IMG/VR virus record: IMGVR_UViG_3300005253_000678
Coordinates: 1-33,537 of that record
Length of the DNA: 33,537 nucleotides
Source: a virus
Reading direction: 5' to 3' (one strand)
Part shown: one piece after another, positions 8,213 to 33,267 of the stretch
Layout: each line of letters opens with the position of its first letter
Numbering within the stretch: position 1 is the stretch's first letter
Notes under the pieces: model-generated
What the model saw: the letters and a program-made list of their open reading frames with translations, nothing else
The model's database searches: none
Told to the model about the DNA's origin: nothing
Program-made: the position numbers and the translations under genes

Positions 8213-8245
8213 CCGGAAGGGCATCTCACCCCTCCGGTTTTTTTT
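8213..8245 (+). terminator. Rho-independent terminator
   Basis: A 9-bp stem with one mismatch (CCGGAAGGG with CCCCTCCGG, loop CATCTCA) is followed by eight T residues. It ends rightward transcription from the tail side. The last T residues overlap the stop codon of the convergent recT-like gene. Confidence 0.85.
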
Positions 8246-9035
8246 AGAAAGGAATTTCGTCAAGAGGAGGCAATTCCTCCTTTTTTTCCTCGGTTATTAC
8301 GGGGTCAATTACGACCTTCTGATCCTCTTCCCATTTGCGGAAAGTAGCCCAGAAATTATCAGGCTTGGCATTAGCCGATCTCTTGATCTCAGCAGGGCTC
8401 TTGGAGTATTGCTCTGAAAGATAGGTGATGTAACGATCCAGATCCTCTGCCTTCACATCCACGGGCAGATCTAGATTCACATCCTCGATCTCTATCTCAT
8501 CCAGATTGGCAGGCTCCACCTCCTTCATGGGCTTCTTCTCAGCCATTTCCTGGATCTCACCTTCGACATAGCAACCACCAATACAGTCAGTGTAAAGCCT
8601 TCTAGCGAGCCTAGACATAGCCCTCCAGTAGAGCATGTCTTCAGGACACTTGATCCACGCTCCACCAGGTTTAATCAAGCCAGCAGCCCGAGCCTCGTCT
8701 ATGGTGTAGGAAGCCTCCATGCTCTCCTCAGTGTCTTTGCGCGTGCCTTCGATGGTGCACTTCTCTTTGGTGAGCAGCTTCAGCTTGAGCCGATGTCCTC
8801 CCTTGCGGATAAGATAAGCCATTCCCTTGCCAGAGATTTCGACCTTCCCTTGGATCACGTTGAACATTCCAGAGATGGAGTTCATGGGAGAAATCCCGAG
8901 CTCTCTAGCCATTAGCATGATTGACAAGATACCCGCTTCTCCTCCCAGTTTGGTCCAGTAGGGTGTTTTAGCAGCATTGCTTGCTACCACTTTGTAGGAG
9001 TTAAGCTCCTGTTCATGCGGTATCAGTTGATTCAT
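8244..9035 (-). CDS. recT: RecT-family single-strand annealing protein with SSB-like C-terminal tip
   Basis: This 263-residue product resembles the RecT family of phage annealing proteins, which pair complementary single strands exposed by a partner exonuclease. Family-like features are the N-terminal AKTPYWTKLGGEAGILSIML region, GKGMAYLIRKGGHRLK and the characteristic YWRAMSRLARRLYTD near residue 165. The C-terminus ends PPLDEIPF, which closely resembles the acidic tip of bacterial SSB (DDDIPF). The ATG at 9035 is chosen because GGAGG lies 6 nt upstream. The longer form starting at 9083 lacks a good site. It is the last gene of the leftward operon that begins with a PD-(D/E)XK nuclease. Confidence 0.85.
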   Translation of the reverse strand: MNQLIPHEQELNSYKVVASNAAKTPYWTKLGGEAGILSIMLMARELGISPMNSISGMFNVIQGKVEISGKGMAYLIRKGGHRLKLKLLTKEKCTIEGTRKDTEESMEASYTIDEARAAGLIKPGGAWIKCPEDMLYWRAMSRLARRLYTDCIGGCYVEGEIQEMAEKKPMKEVEPANLDEIEIEDVNLDLPVDVKAEDLDRYITYLSEQYSKSPAEIKRSANAKPDNFWATFRKWEEDQKVVIDPVITEEKKEELPPLDEIPF

Positions 9036-9210
9036 CTTGATCCTCCAGTGTTTTTTGATAGATTGCCTCATACTCGTCAGCATACATGTAAAGCTTTTTC
9101 CAGCTCTCTGCGGGCCGATCAGGGGTTAACACACGTTGGTGCTCATATGACTTGTACATAAGCCAGTCAACGGCCGTAGAAAGGGCTGGTGGTAGCGTCA
9201 TGTCATTCAT
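9013..9210 (-). CDS. Small hypothetical protein in recombination operon
   Basis: The product has 65 residues starting MNDMTLPPALSTAVDWLMYK and is acidic and helical. The ATG at 9210 is chosen for GGAGG 9 nt upstream. The longer frame to 9297 adds a low-complexity leader. It overlaps the recT-like start by 23 nt, so the recT ribosome site lies within this gene and the two are probably coupled. No family is recognised. Confidence 0.55.
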   Translation of the reverse strand: MNDMTLPPALSTAVDWLMYKSYEHQRVLTPDRPAESWKKLYMYADEYEAIYQKTLEDQDESTDTA

Positions 9211-9681: not shown

Positions 9682-9939
9682 TTAGTCTATTGTGATACCA
9701 AAAACAGTTGATACCATCATTCTTACATTCAATTCTTTCTCCTCACTGTCTCCATAGTGCTCTACCAAGCCATCTTCAAGGGTGTCATAGACGCTTTCGA
9801 GCAAGTCTGTGGCATCCTCCTTGCAGTAGAGATAGAAATCCATCCCTTCCAAATAGTGTTCGGCAAGCGCATTATTGAGGTCGTAGTCGTCAGCATAGGC
9901 TGTGCTTAATGCTTCGCTGATTTGTTCTCTAGTTATCAT
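9682..9939 (-). CDS. Acidic small hypothetical protein
   Basis: The product has 85 residues (MITREQISEALSTAYADDYD at the start) and is very acidic, with GLVEHYGDSEEKELNVRMMV near the end. GGAG lies 6 nt before the ATG, and the gene overlaps the end of the nuclease gene by 11 nt, so it is the second cistron of the operon. Its composition resembles DNA-mimic or anti-nuclease proteins, but that is only a composition argument. Confidence 0.55.
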   Translation of the reverse strand: MITREQISEALSTAYADDYDLNNALAEHYLEGMDFYLYCKEDATDLLESVYDTLEDGLVEHYGDSEEKELNVRMMVSTVFGITID

Positions 9940-10513
9940 TAGTTTTCTCCTTCTTCCTCAGAAAATAGTTGTAGTTTAACAACAGACCCGTGAACAGCCT
10001 GCCATATTCAGTAAGATCCTCATACTGGTGGATCGTGGGCTTCTTGCCCGTCTTCTTGAGCTGTATAACAGCCACACTATCGATCTTGGTCCCACCGAGC
10101 ATTATCAGATGAGCATAGGCTGTAAGCTGCACAGGCCATGCCTTGGATTTGGTGGCTGAGGTCTTGATGTCATAGAGAATGGTCTTCCCATCCTGCTTGA
10201 CTATCATGTCTATCTGACCCGTAAACTTATTCTCGTCATCATAATAACGCTTCTCACTTTCCATCGCAGTGAATTTATTCTCCCCCATCCAGAGATTAAA
10301 ACTATCTATATAAGGTTTACATTCTTCATCAATCGATGGAATAAAATACCCATCCATGAGAGCTTTGCAGATAGCGTGTACCTTGGTTCCGCGTTCACAG
10401 GCATTGGCAAGGACTTCCATGTCAATGTTTTCGAAACCCATCCTGGAATAGGGGTGGATGATTTCCGATACTCGTGGATAATTTAGCCGAGCGGCTTGTA
10501 GGTGCTCCTTCAT
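9929..10513 (-). CDS. PD-(D/E)XK (RecB/lambda-Exo-like) phage exonuclease
   Basis: The product has 194 residues from the chosen start. The nuclease core is complete: GTKVHAI with motif-I His46, GQIDMIV with Asp102, LYDIKTS with Asp115 and Lys117, and QLTAYAHL with Gln129 and Tyr133. This arrangement is that of RecB-like/Cas4-like nucleases, which in phages pair with RecT to resect DNA ends. The RecT-like gene in the same operon supports that role. The ATG at 10513 follows GTGAGG by 5 nt. An in-frame ATG at 10555 has GAGG only 2 nt away and would intrude on the divergent promoter region. Confidence 0.8.
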   Translation of the reverse strand: MKEHLQAARLNYPRVSEIIHPYSRMGFENIDMEVLANACERGTKVHAICKALMDGYFIPSIDEECKPYIDSFNLWMGENKFTAMESEKRYYDDENKFTGQIDMIVKQDGKTILYDIKTSATKSKAWPVQLTAYAHLIMLGGTKIDSVAVIQLKKTGKKPTIHQYEDLTEYGRLFTGLLLNYNYFLRKKEKTNDN

Positions 10514-10565
10514 AGATACCTCACAAAGTGGTTGATTTAATGTCGCGTTTGTCATATCCTCTTTA

Positions 10566-14203: not shown

Positions 14204-14700
14204 GAAAGAAAGGAGCAGAGGAAGACCCAATGTCAGAATTTTGGGAACCCCCTCGAACTAGAAAGAAGATAATTGAGGACAACCGCGCAATAGTCAGACA
14301 GATGGCTAGCGAGGGCGCTACTCAAGAAGACATAGGAGAATATCTAGGCTGCACAAGAGGCAACATCTCTCTTGTTTACCGGGATGAGTGGAATGCAGGA
14401 CGAGGAGGACTTCAGATGAGTGTGCGCAAATGGCAAATCACCAAGGCACGCAGAGGGTGTTCTGACATGCTGAAGCATTTAGGTCGCACATACTGCAAAG
14501 ACCAGAAGGATATTGGTGGAGATCCCCTTTCTCCGGGAAGTCTCACCACTAGTGTGGACGAAATTTGTCACAATTCAGAGAAAGTCAACAAAGAAAGGGA
14601 AGCATGTGGGAACTCAGTCCAAAACAAATCGACTTCGTCCAAAATTCAACGCATCGTTACAACGTCGCAGTCGGATCCGTCCGATCCGGGAAAAGTGTAG
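14200..14700 (+). CDS. Terminase small subunit candidate (HTH)
   Basis: The product has 166 residues. Residues about 25-60 (NRAIVRQMASEGATQEDIGE, YLGCTRGNISLVY) form an HTH like those of TerS proteins, which recognise the packaging site and activate TerL. The rest is basic then low-complexity. It directly precedes terL and overlaps it by 97 nt, an unusually long overlap, so the last 32 residues are encoded in a frame shared with the start of TerL. The ATG at 14200 overlaps the RusA stop. An ATG at 14230 with AGAGGA upstream is an alternative. Confidence 0.6.
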   Translation: MRKKGAEEDPMSEFWEPPRTRKKIIEDNRAIVRQMASEGATQEDIGEYLGCTRGNISLVYRDEWNAGRGGLQMSVRKWQITKARRGCSDMLKHLGRTYCKDQKDIGGDPLSPGSLTTSVDEICHNSEKVNKEREACGNSVQNKSTSSKIQRIVTTSQSDPSDPGKV

Positions 14701-16886
14701 CGGCTAACTTTGCGTTCCTGAAGTTTGCGGCGTCTAAGATTCAGGGCAAATTCATCATTATTGGCCGGACGGAGCGGTCTATCCGCAATAACATCCTCTC
14801 GCCCTTCGCTGACCTGTTGGGCTCAGATTTCCACTTCTTGGCTGGGAAGCGTCAGCTCAAGGTAGCAGGTAGAGAAATCGACGTAGTGGGGGCTAGCGAC
14901 GTCAAGGCTGAAGCGGCTATCCGCGGAAGCACATATGCTGGAGCGCTGGTCGATGAGGTCACTGTGATACCCGAGCCGGTCTTTAGGCAGCTATCCTATC
15001 GCCTATCGGTTACAGGAGCCAGGTGCTACGTCACCACCAACCCTGATAGTCCTTATCACTGGTTCAAGAAGGATTACCTCGACCAGATAGACAAAGAGGA
15101 CATGGATCTGCGCCACTGGCAGTTTAACTTTGACGACAATCCTACGCTTGATCCCACGTATATTCGGCGTATCAAAGCAGAGTCTCACGGGCTGTGGTAC
15201 AAGAGATTCATCGAGGGATTATGGGTACTAGCTGAAGGCGCAATCTATGACATCTTCGAGGATAAGCAACATGTGATCCCTCATCAGCCCAACATGGCAA
15301 GGGAATATGTGGTTGGTGTGGACTATGGGACTACGAATCCTTGTGTTTTTGTGCTCATTGGCTACAATCCTGAGACTTTTCCGCAGCTTTGGATTGAAAA
15401 GGAATACTACTACGACTCCAAGAAGTCCAATCGGCAGAAGACGGACTCCGAGTATGCTACCGATATGGCGAGATTTATCGAGAACCTCCCGGTCAAGGCG
15501 ATTTACATCGACCCATCAGCAGCTAGCTTCAAGAACGAAATGAGACGCGCTGGCATCCAGAACATCTTCGATGCGGATAATGATGTGATGAACGGCATTC
15601 GTGTAGTGGCTGAGCTTTTATACGCTGGTACGTTCAAGGTCTGCCAAGAGTGTAAGCATACCATTGCGGAATTTGGCAACTACATCTGGGATGCGAGAGC
15701 AGCGATCAACGGAGTGGAGAAGCCGCTCAAGCAGCATGATCACTGTTTTGGGGCCATGACTCCTGTGGCGACTGAACAAGGCGATAGGGCTATTTCTAGC
15801 ATAAAGAGAGGTGATAGAGTTTGGACGCGGAAAGGATTAAGAAAAGTTGTTGAAATATGGGAATCAGAGAAAGATCTCTATGAATGGGATCTCATGGGGT
15901 TGAAGATAGAGTGTACTGAAGGACACGAATTTTGGACCTTGGAAAGAGGAAAGGTTCCCGCGGGGCATTTATTGCAATCAGATATTCTTTGTGTTAATAT
16001 CGAGGAATGTGTGATGAAGTCGAATTTAACGGGATTGTCTACCGGCGTTATCCAAACTCCACAGATCAAACGGCCAGAAGATATTACAGAGCTCTTACGA
16101 CAGACAGCAGAAAAAAGTATGGACATTTGCATCGAGCCGTGTGGGAGTTTTACAATGGAGAAATCCCCGATGGAATGCATATCCATCACATCGACGGCGA
16201 CTTCACCAACAATGACATTAGCAATCTCGAATGTCTTTCTCCATCCGAGCATCATAAATGCCATCAGCTTCTTCTTACAGAAAAACAAAAAAAAGCTAGA
16301 AAAAAGCGGATGGAGAAAATTAATCCTCTCACCAAGAAATGGCACCGCTCTCCCGAAGGTCGAGAATGGCATCGGAACCACGCCCAAAAAACGTTTGGAA
16401 ATCAAAAACCAAAACAATACCGCTGTGAGTTATGTAAAACAGAATTTGAATCATATAAACAAGCACGAGTCCGATTTTGTTCGAATAATTGCAAGTCAAA
16501 ATGGAGAAGAAAAGCTGGTCTTGATGATGAGAAAAGAACTTGTGAGAGATGCGGTGACGAATTCGTTATCAACAAGTACTCAAAAAAAATGTACTGTGGG
16601 AAGTCTTGTTCCAAGAAAGCTTATTGGGAAAAGAAAAGTCTACAACCTGACAGTTGAAGGAGAGCATGAATATTTTGCTCATAACTTGTTGGTGTCGAAT
16701 TCTTTAGACGCGATTCGCTACGCCCTATTTACGAGATACAGGAGACTAGGTCAGTCTTATCTCACGGCGCAAGACATCGATCGGATGCGTAGCGAGGCGC
16801 TTGGACTAGAGCCTGAGATGCCTCCGTTTTTCAGAGGATCAGGGCATTTCCCCGATCCAGGATTGGGTAGTGGAGGATTTTATTAA
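14604..16886 (+). CDS. terL: Terminase large subunit precursor containing an intein
   Basis: TerL is the ATP-driven packaging motor and nuclease. The precursor has 760 residues. The ATPase part shows Walker A GSVRSGKS (24-31), Walker B LVDEV (about 117) and the TTNPDSP coupling motif. The nuclease part shows VGVDYG (about 237) and IYIDPSA (about 300). The third acidic motif, DHSLDAIRYAL, is split by a 319-residue intein after the His of DH. Splicing would give 441 residues, a normal TerL size. The ATG at 14604 has GGGA 4 nt upstream and is preferred to 14565. It overlaps TerS by 97 nt. Confidence 0.88.
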   Translation: MWELSPKQIDFVQNSTHRYNVAVGSVRSGKSVAANFAFLKFAASKIQGKFIIIGRTERSIRNNILSPFADLLGSDFHFLAGKRQLKVAGREIDVVGASDVKAEAAIRGSTYAGALVDEVTVIPEPVFRQLSYRLSVTGARCYVTTNPDSPYHWFKKDYLDQIDKEDMDLRHWQFNFDDNPTLDPTYIRRIKAESHGLWYKRFIEGLWVLAEGAIYDIFEDKQHVIPHQPNMAREYVVGVDYGTTNPCVFVLIGYNPETFPQLWIEKEYYYDSKKSNRQKTDSEYATDMARFIENLPVKAIYIDPSAASFKNEMRRAGIQNIFDADNDVMNGIRVVAELLYAGTFKVCQECKHTIAEFGNYIWDARAAINGVEKPLKQHDHCFGAMTPVATEQGDRAISSIKRGDRVWTRKGLRKVVEIWESEKDLYEWDLMGLKIECTEGHEFWTLERGKVPAGHLLQSDILCVNIEECVMKSNLTGLSTGVIQTPQIKRPEDITELLRQTAEKSMDICIEPCGSFTMEKSPMECISITSTATSPTMTLAISNVFLHPSIINAISFFLQKNKKKLEKSGWRKLILSPRNGTALPKVENGIGTTPKKRLEIKNQNNTAVSYVKQNLNHINKHESDFVRIIASQNGEEKLVLMMRKELVRDAVTNSLSTSTQKKCTVGSLVPRKLIGKRKVYNLTVEGEHEYFAHNLLVSNSLDAIRYALFTRYRRLGQSYLTAQDIDRMRSEALGLEPEMPPFFRGSGHFPDPGLGSGGFY
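15744..16700 (+). other. Intein in terL (Hint self-splicing domain)
   Basis: The intein is 319 residues. It starts at Cys in CFGAMTPVATEQGD (block A, with GDRVWT later) and has block B ECTEGHEFWT with the TxxH motif. It ends with block F KVYNLTVEGEHEYFA and block G LLVSN before Ser+1. The terminal Asn is present, but the usual penultimate His is replaced by Ser. The middle of this frame (about 210 residues) shows no endonuclease motif, because the same DNA encodes an HNH enzyme in another frame. The boundaries rest on these motifs and on restoring the TerL nuclease motif. Confidence 0.88.
16007..16657 (+). CDS. HNH homing endonuclease encoded out of frame inside the intein
   Basis: The product has 216 residues in a different frame from terL, wholly inside the intein. 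Residues 41-83 (LHRAVWEFYNGEIPDG, then HIHHIDGDFTNNDISNLECL, EHH) are a complete HNH_3 catalytic core with His60/His61, Asn and His82. The second half has two CxxC...CxxxC zinc ribbons (CELC...CSNNC and CERC...CGKSC). The frame has a TAA at 15995-15997, 4 codons before the ATG, so it cannot be an in-frame extension. GAGG lies only 1 nt before the ATG, so translation may be weak. Its TGA falls in block F of the intein. Confidence 0.8.
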   Translation: MCDEVEFNGIVYRRYPNSTDQTARRYYRALTTDSRKKYGHLHRAVWEFYNGEIPDGMHIHHIDGDFTNNDISNLECLSPSEHHKCHQLLLTEKQKKARKKRMEKINPLTKKWHRSPEGREWHRNHAQKTFGNQKPKQYRCELCKTEFESYKQARVRFCSNNCKSKWRRKAGLDDEKRTCERCGDEFVINKYSKKMYCGKSCSKKAYWEKKSLQPDS

Positions 16887-20314: not shown

Positions 20315-20887
20315 TCATTCAATGTGTTTCCAAGTGATTCCATCTAAAACAGCTCTAATAGTCCCTACAGCTACCTCAAAATGTCTAGCTATTTCAATTT
20401 TTAAGAATTTACCAGAACGAAACATTCGGCGGATTGTTCGGACTTTGGTCGGATTTAATTTTGCTCGAAAATGTTGAGTGCCTTGTGATCGGCGTCCTTT
20501 GACTGCGCAATCAATCGCATTGTCTTTGTTAGTACCTAAAAACAGATGATCCGGGTTAACACAATTTCTCACATCACATTTGTGGAGAACATGTAACCCA
20601 ATGGGAATCTCTCCATGGTAGAGTTTCCAAGCGACTCGATGACAACTCACCATTTTGCCGTCTATTCCGAATTGGCCGTATCCCTTCCGATTTTTCAGGC
20701 CTTTCCATAACCAACAAGTATCCACATGCTTTTCAATTTTTGATAGAAAGCGTTTTTTAATTGTTTGAGGACCATATTTATGTAAGGTATGGCATTTATT
20801 TGAGCAAAAGAACCGGACAGTTTTAGCAATTTGATACGGGAAACGATGAATTTGAAGGCCGCATTGAGAACACAGTATAAATGGCAT
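20315..20887 (-). CDS. HNH homing endonuclease (free-standing)
   Basis: The product has 190 residues. An N-terminal zinc ribbon (CSQCG...FFCSNKC) precedes the HNH_3-type core (CHRVAWKLYHGEIPIGLHVL, HKCDVRNCVNPDHLFLGTNK). A C-terminal HTH follows (KLNPTKVRTIRRMFRSGKFL, IARHFEVAVGTIRAVLDG), which binds the target site. The gene is antisense to the portal operon and starts with no ribosome site, consistent with a selfish insert. It ends 10 nt from the portal stop. It is a paralog of the HNH at 32437 and shares the ribbon type with the intein HNH. Confidence 0.85.
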   Translation of the reverse strand: MPFILCSQCGLQIHRFPYQIAKTVRFFCSNKCHTLHKYGPQTIKKRFLSKIEKHVDTCWLWKGLKNRKGYGQFGIDGKMVSCHRVAWKLYHGEIPIGLHVLHKCDVRNCVNPDHLFLGTNKDNAIDCAVKGRRSQGTQHFRAKLNPTKVRTIRRMFRSGKFLKIEIARHFEVAVGTIRAVLDGITWKHIE

Positions 20888-22577: not shown

Positions 22578-22657
22578 GTTGAGTCAGGTCGAGTATCGGC
22601 GCGGTATGTTTGGTCGCGTTCAGGTCTGGCCAGTTCAGTTGTGATAAGGCAAGTTTT
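22578..22657 (+). repeat. Pentamer array 1 (16 units of G-K-Y-N-N)
   Basis: The array is 80 bp and reads as sixteen consecutive 5-mers that all begin with G. Base 2 is never C and base 3 is mostly T or C. It ends GGCAA GTTTT, followed by AGGAGAA. It lies 29 bp before array 2 in the leader of the RAMP-like gene. The 5-bp period does not fit protein coding. Confidence 0.85.
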
Positions 22658-22686
22658 AGGAGAATAGCAAACATTATAATCAATAT

Positions 22687-22766
22687 GTTGGGTCTTGGCA
22701 GGATGTGATACGTTGCGTTAAGGAATGGGATGGTCAGGTTGGTTTCGTCGAGTTATGGCAAGTTTT
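22687..22766 (+). repeat. Pentamer array 2 (16 units)
   Basis: This array is also exactly 80 bp and sixteen 5-mers, all starting with G, beginning GTTGG GTCTT and ending GGCAA GTTTT. It ends 18 nt before the ATG of the RAMP-like gene, so it is inside that gene's 5' leader. Confidence 0.85.
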
Positions 22767-22784
22767 AAATTTAAAGGGGTATCA

Positions 22785-23387
22785 ATGTTAAAAAAAGCAG
22801 AAGTTTCAGTAAGAGGGACGCGTCCATTTTTATGGCACGCATTTACAGAAGAGGCTCTCTCTACAAGCCGAAAGGTCAAAGGTGGTGTTGCGGGAAACGA
22901 TCCTGACGAGTGGAAGAAAACCGTCTTGGCGACGGATAAGGGTTTACTATTCATAAAGCCCTCTTATATTTTCGGTAGTCTAAAGAATGGAGCCACTTTC
23001 ATCAAGGTTGGGCGTGGGACTATTACGAAGAAGGTTGCAGCGACCCTGATTGTTCTGGATGACATCATTTACATGAAAACGGAAAATGACGATCATCTTT
23101 TCTTGCCCAGTGAAGAGGAACTCGACCGCGATGCTACTAAGAGCGTCTACTTGGATGTTACATCGGTGGTTAACCCAAACACCAAAGGGCGAAACATACG
23201 CTATCGAGTGGCTGCTAAATACCCTTGGTTTGCTACGTTCAACATTCAATGGGATGCAACCGTGGTCTCAGAGATTCAGATGAAGGAAACATGCGAAGCG
23301 GCAGGTGTTTTCTCAGGTTTAGGGGATGGTCGAGGCGTTGGCAATGGACGATATGAGATCGATTCCTTCGAGGTTAGTAAGGATTAG
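22785..23387 (+). CDS. RAMP/Cas7-like protein associated with pentamer arrays
   Basis: The product has 200 residues. By eye it follows the RAMP/Cas7 plan: an opening strand (KAEVSVRGTRPFLWHAF, 4-20), YIFGSLKNGATF (61-72) like the P-G-S-S-L-K-G-A segment of Csm3/Cas7, a late strand and helix (WFATFNIQW, then EIQMKETCEAAG), and a glycine-rich loop GLGDGRGVGNGRYEI (178-192), the most diagnostic RAMP feature. Cas7 proteins bind RNA periodically. The ATG at 22785 follows AAAGGGG by 5 nt; the longer frame from 22725 runs inside array 2 and is rejected. Arrays 1-2 lie in its leader and array 3 starts on the base after its stop. No other Cas gene is present. Confidence 0.6.
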   Translation: MLKKAEVSVRGTRPFLWHAFTEEALSTSRKVKGGVAGNDPDEWKKTVLATDKGLLFIKPSYIFGSLKNGATFIKVGRGTITKKVAATLIVLDDIIYMKTENDDHLFLPSEEELDRDATKSVYLDVTSVVNPNTKGRNIRYRVAAKYPWFATFNIQWDATVVSEIQMKETCEAAGVFSGLGDGRGVGNGRYEIDSFEVSKD

Positions 23388-23452
23388 GGGGGGGTACGGT
23401 AAGGTTCGGTCGGTTGGGATGAGTTATGTTAAGTTTCGTCCAGGCAAGTTTT
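23388..23452 (+). repeat. Pentamer array 3 (13 units)
   Basis: The array is 65 bp, thirteen 5-mers all starting with G, from GGGGG to GGCAA GTTTT. Its first base directly follows the TAG of the RAMP-like gene. Confidence 0.85.
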
Positions 23453-23484
23453 GGAGAGAGAGCTTTGAGGTTATTAAAGAATAA
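23453..23484 (+). pseudogene. Remnant of a second RAMP-like gene's 3' end
   Basis: Bases 23461-23484 encode SFEVIKE and a TAA. The intact gene ends SFEVSKD and a TAG, and the last 21 nt match at 16 positions. Array 4 begins on the base after this TAA, exactly as array 3 follows the intact stop. The remnant is joined directly to the end of array 3, as if most of a gene copy had been deleted. Confidence 0.6.
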
Positions 23485-23539
23485 GGCGGGGCGTGACGGG
23501 GCGCTGTCAGTTTAGGCGCGGTTGGGCATGGCTAGTTTT
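23485..23539 (+). repeat. Pentamer array 4 (11 units)
   Basis: The array is 55 bp; ten of eleven 5-mers start with G (one, TGTCA, is the only exception in all six arrays). It ends GGCTA GTTTT, a one-base variant of the usual end, then GGGGGAG. It is the most G+C-rich of the arrays. Confidence 0.8.
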
Positions 23540-23581
23540 GGGGGAGTGGAGCACAAAGTTAAAGATTACATGGAGAGGAGA

Positions 23582-23631
23582 GTCTAGTTCGGACCCGTCC
23601 AGTTAAGTTTCGGTTTGTCAAGGCAAGTTTG
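23582..23631 (+). repeat. Pentamer array 5 (10 units, perhaps 12)
   Basis: The array is 50 bp, ten 5-mers starting with G, ending GGCAA GTTTG. Two GGAGA units just before it (23572-23581) stay in phase and may belong to it. The spacer after array 4 holds AAAGTTAAAGATTACATGGA, which resembles the spacer after this array. Confidence 0.8.
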
Positions 23632-23666
23632 AGGGAAAGGATTGGATTTACAACTAAGGATTATTT

Positions 23667-23741
23667 GGAACGTTGAGATGCGGCCTGTTGTGGACGGTTA
23701 AGTTAAGTTCCGGTCAGTTGAGTTACGTTGAGGCAAGTTTT
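23667..23741 (+). repeat. Pentamer array 6 (15 units)
   Basis: The array is 75 bp, fifteen 5-mers all starting with G, ending GGCAA GTTTT GGAG. The GGAG after it is the ribosome site of the HTH gene at 23751, so the array forms that gene's leader as array 2 does for the RAMP-like gene. The spacer before it contains TAAGGATTA, also found at the end of the RAMP-like gene. Confidence 0.85.
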
Positions 23742-23750
23742 GGAGAAAAA

Positions 23751-23945
23751 ATGAATTATTATGTATATTTAAGTATCAAGCAAGTGGTGGATGCCAGTTG
23801 TTATCCCTTCACGCTGGGTCAAATTCAATTCTTTCTACGGAGGAGAGACAAAAATGGGTTGCATAAAGCAGTCCGTAAAATCGGAAAGTGCATTTATCTA
23901 AGGCAAGACCTCTTTGAAGAATGGATCGAGTCGTACAGTGTTTAG
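23751..23945 (+). CDS. Excisionase/MerR-like HTH small protein
   Basis: The product has 64 residues. TLGQIQFFLRRRDKNGLHKA followed by VRKIGKCIYLRQDLFEEWIE fits the small winged-HTH plan of excisionase and phage AlpA-like proteins, in which the second part (kaVrkiG..iYl....F.eWi) is typical. The ATG at 23751 has GGAG 6 nt upstream, just after pentamer array 6. The longer frame from 23673 lies inside the array and is rejected. No integrase is seen here, so a regulatory role is as likely as excision. Confidence 0.65.
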   Translation: MNYYVYLSIKQVVDASCYPFTLGQIQFFLRRRDKNGLHKAVRKIGKCIYLRQDLFEEWIESYSV

Positions 23946-24369
23946 TTGCAAAAGATTCCACCCCAAGTGTCGTGCGAATTGTTGTGGTTGCTTTCCCTTC
24001 TCCAAAACATTTTATGAAAAAAATAAGCATCGTGTTGTTAACGAGCCTATCGAACTCAAGGAATTTGTAGCGCCCGAACCTCCTGATCTCGAAGAAATAC
24101 CTCTGGTGATACCAGTCACAGAAGATGGGAGCTGTCCTTTTCTTAAAGGAGATATGATGTGCGCCATTTATGATGATCGTCCATATGTATGTAGAGAATT
24201 TGGTTGTGAAAAGACAAAAACTTTAACCTGTCCCCATCAGGATGCAAATGGCAGAACGAGAAGTCGCCAGGAAATGAGGAAAATTGACCGCGAAACAAGA
24301 AAGGAAATACTGCAATCGCTGAAGGGGCTCTTCAAAAGGGCGTGGAACAAAAATGACCCGATTTCCTAA
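23938..24369 (+). CDS. YkgJ-like Cys-cluster protein
   Basis: The product has 143 residues. CKRFHPKCRANCCGCF at the N-terminus and CPFLKGDMMCAIYDDRPYVC with CREFGCE and CPHQ later form the Cys pattern of the YkgJ/CxxCxxCC family, thought to bind zinc or iron. The C-terminus is a charged helix. I chose the GTG at 23938, which overlaps the previous stop by 8 nt. A TTG at 23914 would give 151 residues. The function in phages is unknown. Confidence 0.65.
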   Translation: MFSCKRFHPKCRANCCGCFPFSKTFYEKNKHRVVNEPIELKEFVAPEPPDLEEIPLVIPVTEDGSCPFLKGDMMCAIYDDRPYVCREFGCEKTKTLTCPHQDANGRTRSRQEMRKIDRETRKEILQSLKGLFKRAWNKNDPIS

Positions 24370-32436: not shown

Positions 32437-33267
32437 ATGACAAAAATGAGAGCAAATTTAACATCACCTAAGTATACTCCAGAGAAACTTTTTTGGGGAA
32501 GATTTATGGATGAAAAAATATGCTCGAAATGTGGAGAAAAGAGACTTAAAAGCTTTTTCTATGGGAAAGCAGCTGAATGCAAAAAATGTTGGGCTGAACG
32601 AGTTCGACTGTACAACGAAAGAAAGCCTGAAATTCTCAAAAAAACCAAGAAAAAATGGAATGAGAAAGTTCATCCGAAAATTGAATGCAAAATTTGTGGA
32701 ACAATATTCAAAAGAAAAAGCGCGAGTAGTGTTTGCTCATTAAAATGTCGTATCTTAGATGGATGTAAAGAAGAAAAAAATGGCTGTTGGATTTGGCAAA
32801 AATGCCGAGGACGACAAAGTTATGGGAAAACTGGATGGTTTTCCAAAACTGTAACAGCTCATCGGGCATCATATATAGCCTTCAAAGGTGAAATCCCAGA
32901 AGGGCTCCAGGTTTGTCATAAATGTGATGTGCGTCTTTGTGTAAATCCGGATCATTTGTGGCTAGGAACTCAGAAAGATAATATGGAAGATGCCAAAACA
33001 AAAGGTCGCCTGAAAGGCACTCCGGGAATCAAATGGACTGATCAACAACGCGAAAATATCTTGAAAAATCGCCAACCTCCTAATAAAAAAGGAGAAGCCC
33101 ACCATCTAGCAAAATTGAACGAAAAAAATGTTAGAGAAATTAGAAACTTATTGAGAGAAGGTATCAAGCAAAGCAAAATTGCTGATAAATATGGCGTTTG
33201 CCAATCAGCCGTCTCCCATATTAAAAGCGGTAGACTTTGGCCGCATATTTTAGAGGAAGAAAAATGA
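32437..33267 (+). CDS. HNH homing endonuclease inserted at the next gene's start
   Basis: The product has 276 residues with two N-terminal zinc ribbons (CSKCGEK...CKKC and CKICGTI...CSLKC) and the HNH core AHRASYIAFKGEIPEGLQVC, HKCDVRLCVNPDHLWLG. A C-terminal HTH (EKNVREIRNLLREGIKQSKI, ADKYGVCQSAVSHIKSG) resembles the one in the enzyme at 20315. It lies between a connector gene and the following virion gene. ATGACA occurs both at its start and at the next gene's start, and its TGA overlaps that ATG. This is a mobile gene. Confidence 0.85.
   Translation: MTKMRANLTSPKYTPEKLFWGRFMDEKICSKCGEKRLKSFFYGKAAECKKCWAERVRLYNERKPEILKKTKKKWNEKVHPKIECKICGTIFKRKSASSVCSLKCRILDGCKEEKNGCWIWQKCRGRQSYGKTGWFSKTVTAHRASYIAFKGEIPEGLQVCHKCDVRLCVNPDHLWLGTQKDNMEDAKTKGRLKGTPGIKWTDQQRENILKNRQPPNKKGEAHHLAKLNEKNVREIRNLLREGIKQSKIADKYGVCQSAVSHIKSGRLWPHILEEEK

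Follow-up and report, generated by a model that had tools for sequence, protein, structure and literature searches.

The locus at 22578-23741 of the window (the whole stretch of viral DNA that was analysed, 33,537 nucleotides) is very probably a VIPR locus of a podovirus-like phage, serving the RNA-guided binding and silencing of competitors. VIPR (Viral Interference Programmable Repeat) was presented in a preprint of April-June 2026 as a phage-borne RAMP protein, Vipr, together with noncoding vrRNAs that carry an invariable, structured 3' tail (PMC13142463). Each vrRNA has 9-16 pentamers in which GGY alternates with a hypervariable NN pair, and it is the NN pairs that recognise double-stranded DNA, each separated from the next by one skipped base, which usually lies at the codon wobble position of the target (PMC13142463). 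The published tests comprise copurification of vrRNA and Vipr, gel binding and GFP repression, as well as phage defence, assayed with a lambda variant, and the induction of a lambda lysogen (PMC13142463). The preprint covers 667 VIPR systems, two clades of them in detail, and distinguishes seven types with differing accessory vap genes, types III and V having predicted nucleases; some types have repeats of a related consensus, and staggered arrays also occur (PMC13142463). VIPR is already a named kind of system (April 2026), and the window adds an example, perhaps one already among the 667.

In the window, two arrays lie upstream and four downstream of the vipr gene, all outside the vipr frame and intergenic, and a small open reading frame (ORF) follows the last array:

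22578-22657, plus strand: vrRNA-like array 1, 16 pentamers, GKY-NN, end GGCAA GTTTT, score 29.6
22687-22766, plus strand: vrRNA-like array 2, 16 pentamers, end GGCAA GTTTT, score 27.2
22785-23387, plus strand: vipr gene, 200 aa, single-domain RAMP protein, phrog_4652
23388-23452, plus strand: vrRNA-like array 3, 13 pentamers, end GGCAA GTTTT, score 24.4 over 23388-23457
23485-23539, plus strand: vrRNA-like array 4, 11 pentamers including one G-less unit (TGTCA), end GGCTA GTTTT, score 16.6 over 23485-23544
23582-23631, plus strand: vrRNA-like array 5, 10 pentamers, end GGCAA GTTTG, score 20.4 over 23572-23631
23667-23741, plus strand: vrRNA-like array 6, 15 pentamers, end GGCAA GTTTT, score 27.2 over 23667-23746
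23751-23945, plus strand: small ORF, 64 aa, weakly HTH_17-like (E=0.016, below the curated cut-off)

The six arrays comprise 81 pentamer units, and the coordinates proposed for them in the earlier note, which had been made from the sequence alone, were all confirmed; array 5 could also start at 23572, which would add two units. Position 1 is G in 80 units and T in one; position 2 is T in 42, G in 32, A in 7 and C in none; position 3 is T in 49, C in 26, A in 4 and G in 2 (Y in 75 of 81); and positions 4 and 5 are freely variable, which gives the consensus GKY-NN. The predominance of T over G at position 2 is a counterpoint to the VIPR reading, unlike the GGY of the main types of the preprint. 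At the local G content of 0.32, the binomial probability of G heading 80 of 81 units is about 1e-38, the post hoc choice of phase being immaterial at such a size. When the whole window was scored for the G-K-Y pattern on both strands, the arrays (16.6 to 29.6) were the only regions with a score of at least 9, and the highest score among 200 shuffled windows was 11.6. Unit counts and shuffling alike uphold the six arrays with their nearly invariant leading G and the lack of C at the second base, as originally noticed.

All six arrays end in GGCAA GTTTT or a one-base variant, as the earlier note had it, the terminal GGCAAGTTTT being exact in arrays 1, 2, 3 and 6 and one base off in arrays 4 and 5. 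The GGAG that was thought to follow often is shared only in part and is missing after array 2; 3' of array 6 it also lies where a Shine-Dalgarno site for the following ORF (ATG at 23751) would be expected, and after some arrays it is at least partly the ribosome binding site of the next gene. The 3' tails have about 14 nt in common (GGCAAGTTTT plus purines), and single folds of the window arrays revealed no hairpin common to these tails. An Rfam search of the window gave no match, and between 20900 and 25900 the only direct repeat families were the pentamer arrays and one two-copy repeat, with no repeat-spacer array. A short A-rich stretch resembling GTTA-TAAGGATTA is found 5' of arrays 3-6 (around 23373-23387, 23466-23484, 23559-23571 and 23652-23666), and could serve in processing or as a spacer, or be left over from a duplicated vipr 3' end.

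The vipr reading frame is intact. Its product matches phrog_4652, a PHROGs family without function (E=9.6e-9), to which SUSP1 Vipr also belongs (E=1e-96), and no match to the 200-aa protein was found in Pfam, NCBIfam or PADLOC. In a PDB sequence search with the window protein, the entry 'SUSP1 Vipr protein' (36pp) came first over the whole length, albeit with a weak E-value of 0.03. A clade profile built from 35 clade members, with SUSP1-like rows excluded, gave 36pp as the sole clear PDB match, again over the whole length, with E=7e-10; the value was 1.5e-19 when one SUSP1-like row (L009) was included. The supposition that this was an undescribed system has therefore to be withdrawn, as the profile leads to a kind already named VIPR (PMC13142463). 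The AlphaFold model of the window Vipr has a mean pLDDT of 91.9, the top Foldseek matches of this model are Csm3 proteins (E about 1e-8), and VIA-align places it with Csm3 and other Cas7 proteins at Z up to 12.3. The fold comparison thus agrees with the RAMP/Cas7-like character that had first been read from motifs. The window Vipr also has the glycine-rich loop that goes with the RRM/RAMP fold of Vipr proteins (GDGRxxGxGR; conserved form GxGDxRxxGxGR).

Searches of viral contigs with the window protein alone, and of phages by tblastn, returned nothing, so that an alignment was needed to find homologs. With an alignment of the window protein and the L022 protein, 25 viral and 18 bacterial-genome loci were retrieved, to which the window Vipr is 38-54% identical. 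Arrays occur on the sense strand within about 2 kb of the gene in 40 of these 43 loci, as the earlier note would lead one to expect; under a stricter score arrays were present in 39 of 43, and the antisense matches numbered 6 in all loci together. The same array scan applied to SUSP1 as a positive control recovered four arrays, one upstream and three downstream, as published. A search with a DNA-only pattern (seven G at five-base spacing, then GGCAAGTTTT) led to 15 viral contigs, seven of which encode a phrog_4652 (Vipr) relative with arrays alongside; a search for the pentamer rhythm in DNA is thus enough to detect VIPR loci with no knowledge of the protein. With these two independent routes, DNA-only and protein-only, and with the profile and the model, the window locus groups with VIPR in its protein and fold as well as in its arrays and their layout.

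A small HNH nuclease gene (MPKKRQPREIW...) is located downstream of vipr in 38 of the 43 homologous loci. No copy of this accessory protein could be identified in the 33.5 kb of the window, a record that may be incomplete, and it is also absent from L069, L072/L073 and L074/L076; in the loci without HNH gene, arrays flank vipr on both sides wherever both flanks are present in the contig. In the family tree the window Vipr is found among HNH-bearing loci, in a placement that is not firm, and the AU test does not reject one common origin for the four lineages without the nuclease (p-AU 0.56). The repeat is of the GGY type in most clade members and GTY in nearly every unit of L067 and L075, and it is mixed in the window. 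Tentatively, the window could represent a VIPR subtype that arose within the nuclease-associated clade when the HNH gene was lost, with a repeat relaxed to GKY-NN and a return from destroying targets to silencing them in conflicts between phages, a scenario that we consider possible but on the whole doubtful.

Several relatives have arrays of unusual build. In L012 (1912-2493, minus strand) and L003 (327-858, minus strand) about ten arrays follow one another in a long run, the phase shifting where they meet at GGCAG/GGCGG TT junctions, and the L012 repeat mostly alternates GGC-NN and GTT-NN, amounting to a ten-base super-period. L072 (3829-3983, plus strand) contains 31 nearly unbroken pentamers, mostly GGY-NN, which exceeds the described 9-16 and may reflect two guides that are fused or overlapping. 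The arrays of L074 (3899-3963 and 4600-4654, plus strand), the same in L076, have a GGA-NN consensus rather than GGY, 16 of their 24 units having A as the third base, and belong to a nuclease-less relative.

Putative targets were sought by decoding the guides with one base skipped between NN pairs. In a scan of IMG/VR in which eight consecutive decoded units were required, guides 1, 2, 3, 5 and 6 of the window yielded chance-level matches only (5-11 matches per guide), and the units flanking these matches fitted no better than chance. The best of these, a match of ten units running to array 2 in a portal-like gene of L047, was treated as chance because the skipped base is off the wobble position. 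No self-target of the window guides was found within the window, matching of 99 guides among the fetched loci gave nothing convincing, and the NN dinucleotides of 95 arrays carried no codon signature separable from the genome background.

For the relatives found in bacteria, guides were also scanned over genomes of the respective bacterial orders. Of five guides scanned over about 250-300 genomes, one gave a target and four gave none; the guides of L087 (two), L085, L089 and L083 had no target in 11 to 299 genomes. The vrRNA of L079 (Paenibacillus cellulosilyticus), decoded with the one-base skip, matched two places in 298 genomes, where 0.06 would be expected by chance. In L112, 11 units of this guide run without error, for which the expectation is about 6e-4 per scan and 3e-3 over the five scans. 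The two matches are both antisense to a terminase large subunit gene, the two genes being homologous (phrog_38, E=2e-81 and 5e-79), and each time the base that is skipped is complementary to the third, or wobble, position of the codon. Since the two matches are homologous, they were counted as one event. The same guide gave no match with the reversed pattern, nor with a two-base-skip version in 248 genomes. The L079 match, a single case, gives good support to the one-base-skip code and to phage targets in this clade. Code and phage target are thus supported in a relative only. Viral targets are likewise reported in the preprint for its nuclease-bearing types (PMC13142463).

We propose that the locus would act as in the published model, in which Vipr subunits line up along each vrRNA, hold the G-K-Y triplet and expose the NN pair, so that successive NN pairs jointly recognise double-stranded DNA with the target pattern NN-x-NN-x-NN. 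The six arrays would then provide six different guides, and the complex would bind DNA of a rival phage, prophage or satellite in the same host and silence its transcription. We infer in this way that the arrays are expressed and bound by Vipr, that silencing follows, and which kinds of elements the six guides are aimed at. The suggestion in the earlier note that the protein polymerises on RNA with a G at fixed period comes close to this model; of the functions it envisaged, translation control and protection of nucleic acid are not retained, and the sensing of invaders is nearest to the published RNA-guided DNA recognition. The 64-aa ORF might conceivably encode an accessory (vap) protein, which is a guess, and no homologs of it were found in the fetched loci or phage records.

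Silencing is taken as the most likely effect because the nuclease typical of the clade is absent from the locus. An effector encoded elsewhere in the phage or host, with targets being cut rather than silenced, is unlikely, even though a downstream HNH nuclease is the rule among the homologous loci (38 of 43) between which the window protein is placed in the tree, and two other HNH genes are present in the window (20315-20887 and 32437-33267). The latter are of the HNH_3 homing type and do not adjoin vipr, and the accessory HNH protein of the clade itself is lacking from the (possibly incomplete) 33.5-kb record.

Decay of the VIPR locus, with an intact protein and guides that are drifting and out of use, appears improbable. 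It could account for the G-less unit in array 4, the relaxation of GGY to GKY, the absent nuclease and the failure to find targets for guides 1, 2, 3, 5 and 6, but G is kept in 80 and Y in 75 of the 81 units, and the vipr frame is intact. Moreover, L067 and L075 have clean arrays with GTY in nearly every unit, so that arrays with T as the second base appear to be functional.

It is very improbable that the arrays are operator or leader sites at which the RAMP protein exerts a TRAP-like control over the translation or transcription of phage genes nearby, although arrays 2 and 6 are directly upstream of the start codons at 22785 and 23751 and the five-base period resembles that of TRAP leader repeats. 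What follows 3' of arrays 3-5 is no clear gene but another array, the NN positions differ wholly from one array to the next, a diversity not required of an operator, the fold is that of a RAMP, and in the preprint the vrRNAs bound by this family are separate RNAs (PMC13142463). The reading as a VIPR locus directed at competitors is the one that we retain.

The remainder of the phage shows several further features. The capsid and portal proteins are only 20-30% identical to those of scattered phages and indicate no host. The terminase large subunit ORF (14565-16886, plus strand) contains an intein (Hint_2 and Intein_splicing matches), within which an ORF in another frame (16007-16657, plus strand) codes for an HNH_3 endonuclease (E=1.2e-17), although no stop codon interrupts the terminase/intein frame over these 650 nt. 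Free-standing genes for HNH_3 homing-type endonucleases are located at 20315-20887 (minus strand) and 32437-33267 (plus strand). A PD-(D/E)XK nuclease is encoded at 9929-10555 (minus strand; PDDEXK_1, E=8e-7, with a weaker Cas_Cas4 match, E=9e-6), near a weakly RecT-like gene (8244-9083, minus strand). Directly after the VIPR locus, 23914-24369 (plus strand) encodes a CxxCxxCC putative zinc- or iron-chelating protein (PF03692, E=5.5e-6).

Together, the window and its 43 relatives add a VIPR clade that is mostly paired with an HNH nuclease and has some members without it, and the Paenibacillus terminase match independently supports both the one-base-skip code and the targeting of phages by this clade. 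Among known systems, the closest comparison is with the VIPR of Escherichia phage SUSP1 (type II; PDB 36pp; PMC13142463), which shares a phage-borne single RAMP protein of about 200 aa (profile E=7e-10), pentamer arrays of identical phase flanking the gene at either side (10-16 units in the window versus 9-16) and an adjoining small ORF. The window differs from SUSP1 in that its Vipr is only about 21% identical to SUSP1 Vipr, its repeat is GKY-NN rather than GGY-NN, its arrays end in a common GGCAAGTTTT with no evident structured tail, and no homolog of SUSP1 Vap1 was recognised. With the nuclease-associated clade it shares 38-54% Vipr identity and the placement of arrays beside the gene (40 of 43 loci), and it is unlike 38 of these 43 loci in having no HNH gene.

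The Cas7 family of class 1 CRISPR systems (Csm3, Cmr4, Cas7-11) binds RNA with a short period, and the window protein resembles it in its modelled fold and in the glycine-rich loop GDGRxxGxGR. Unlike class 1 CRISPR, the locus has no adjoining repeat-spacer array, no other cas genes were recognised, and the guide information of VIPR is interleaved instead of contiguous; the predicted Cas7-family fold is a common fold and not a sign of membership in CRISPR-Cas type III. TRAP subunits also read RNA triplets about every five nucleotides, but these are (G/U)AG and the spacer bases are not used as a code, whereas the window triplet is G-K-Y, with G at position 3 in only 2 and A at position 2 in only 7 of the 81 units, and the fold matches of the window protein are RAMPs.
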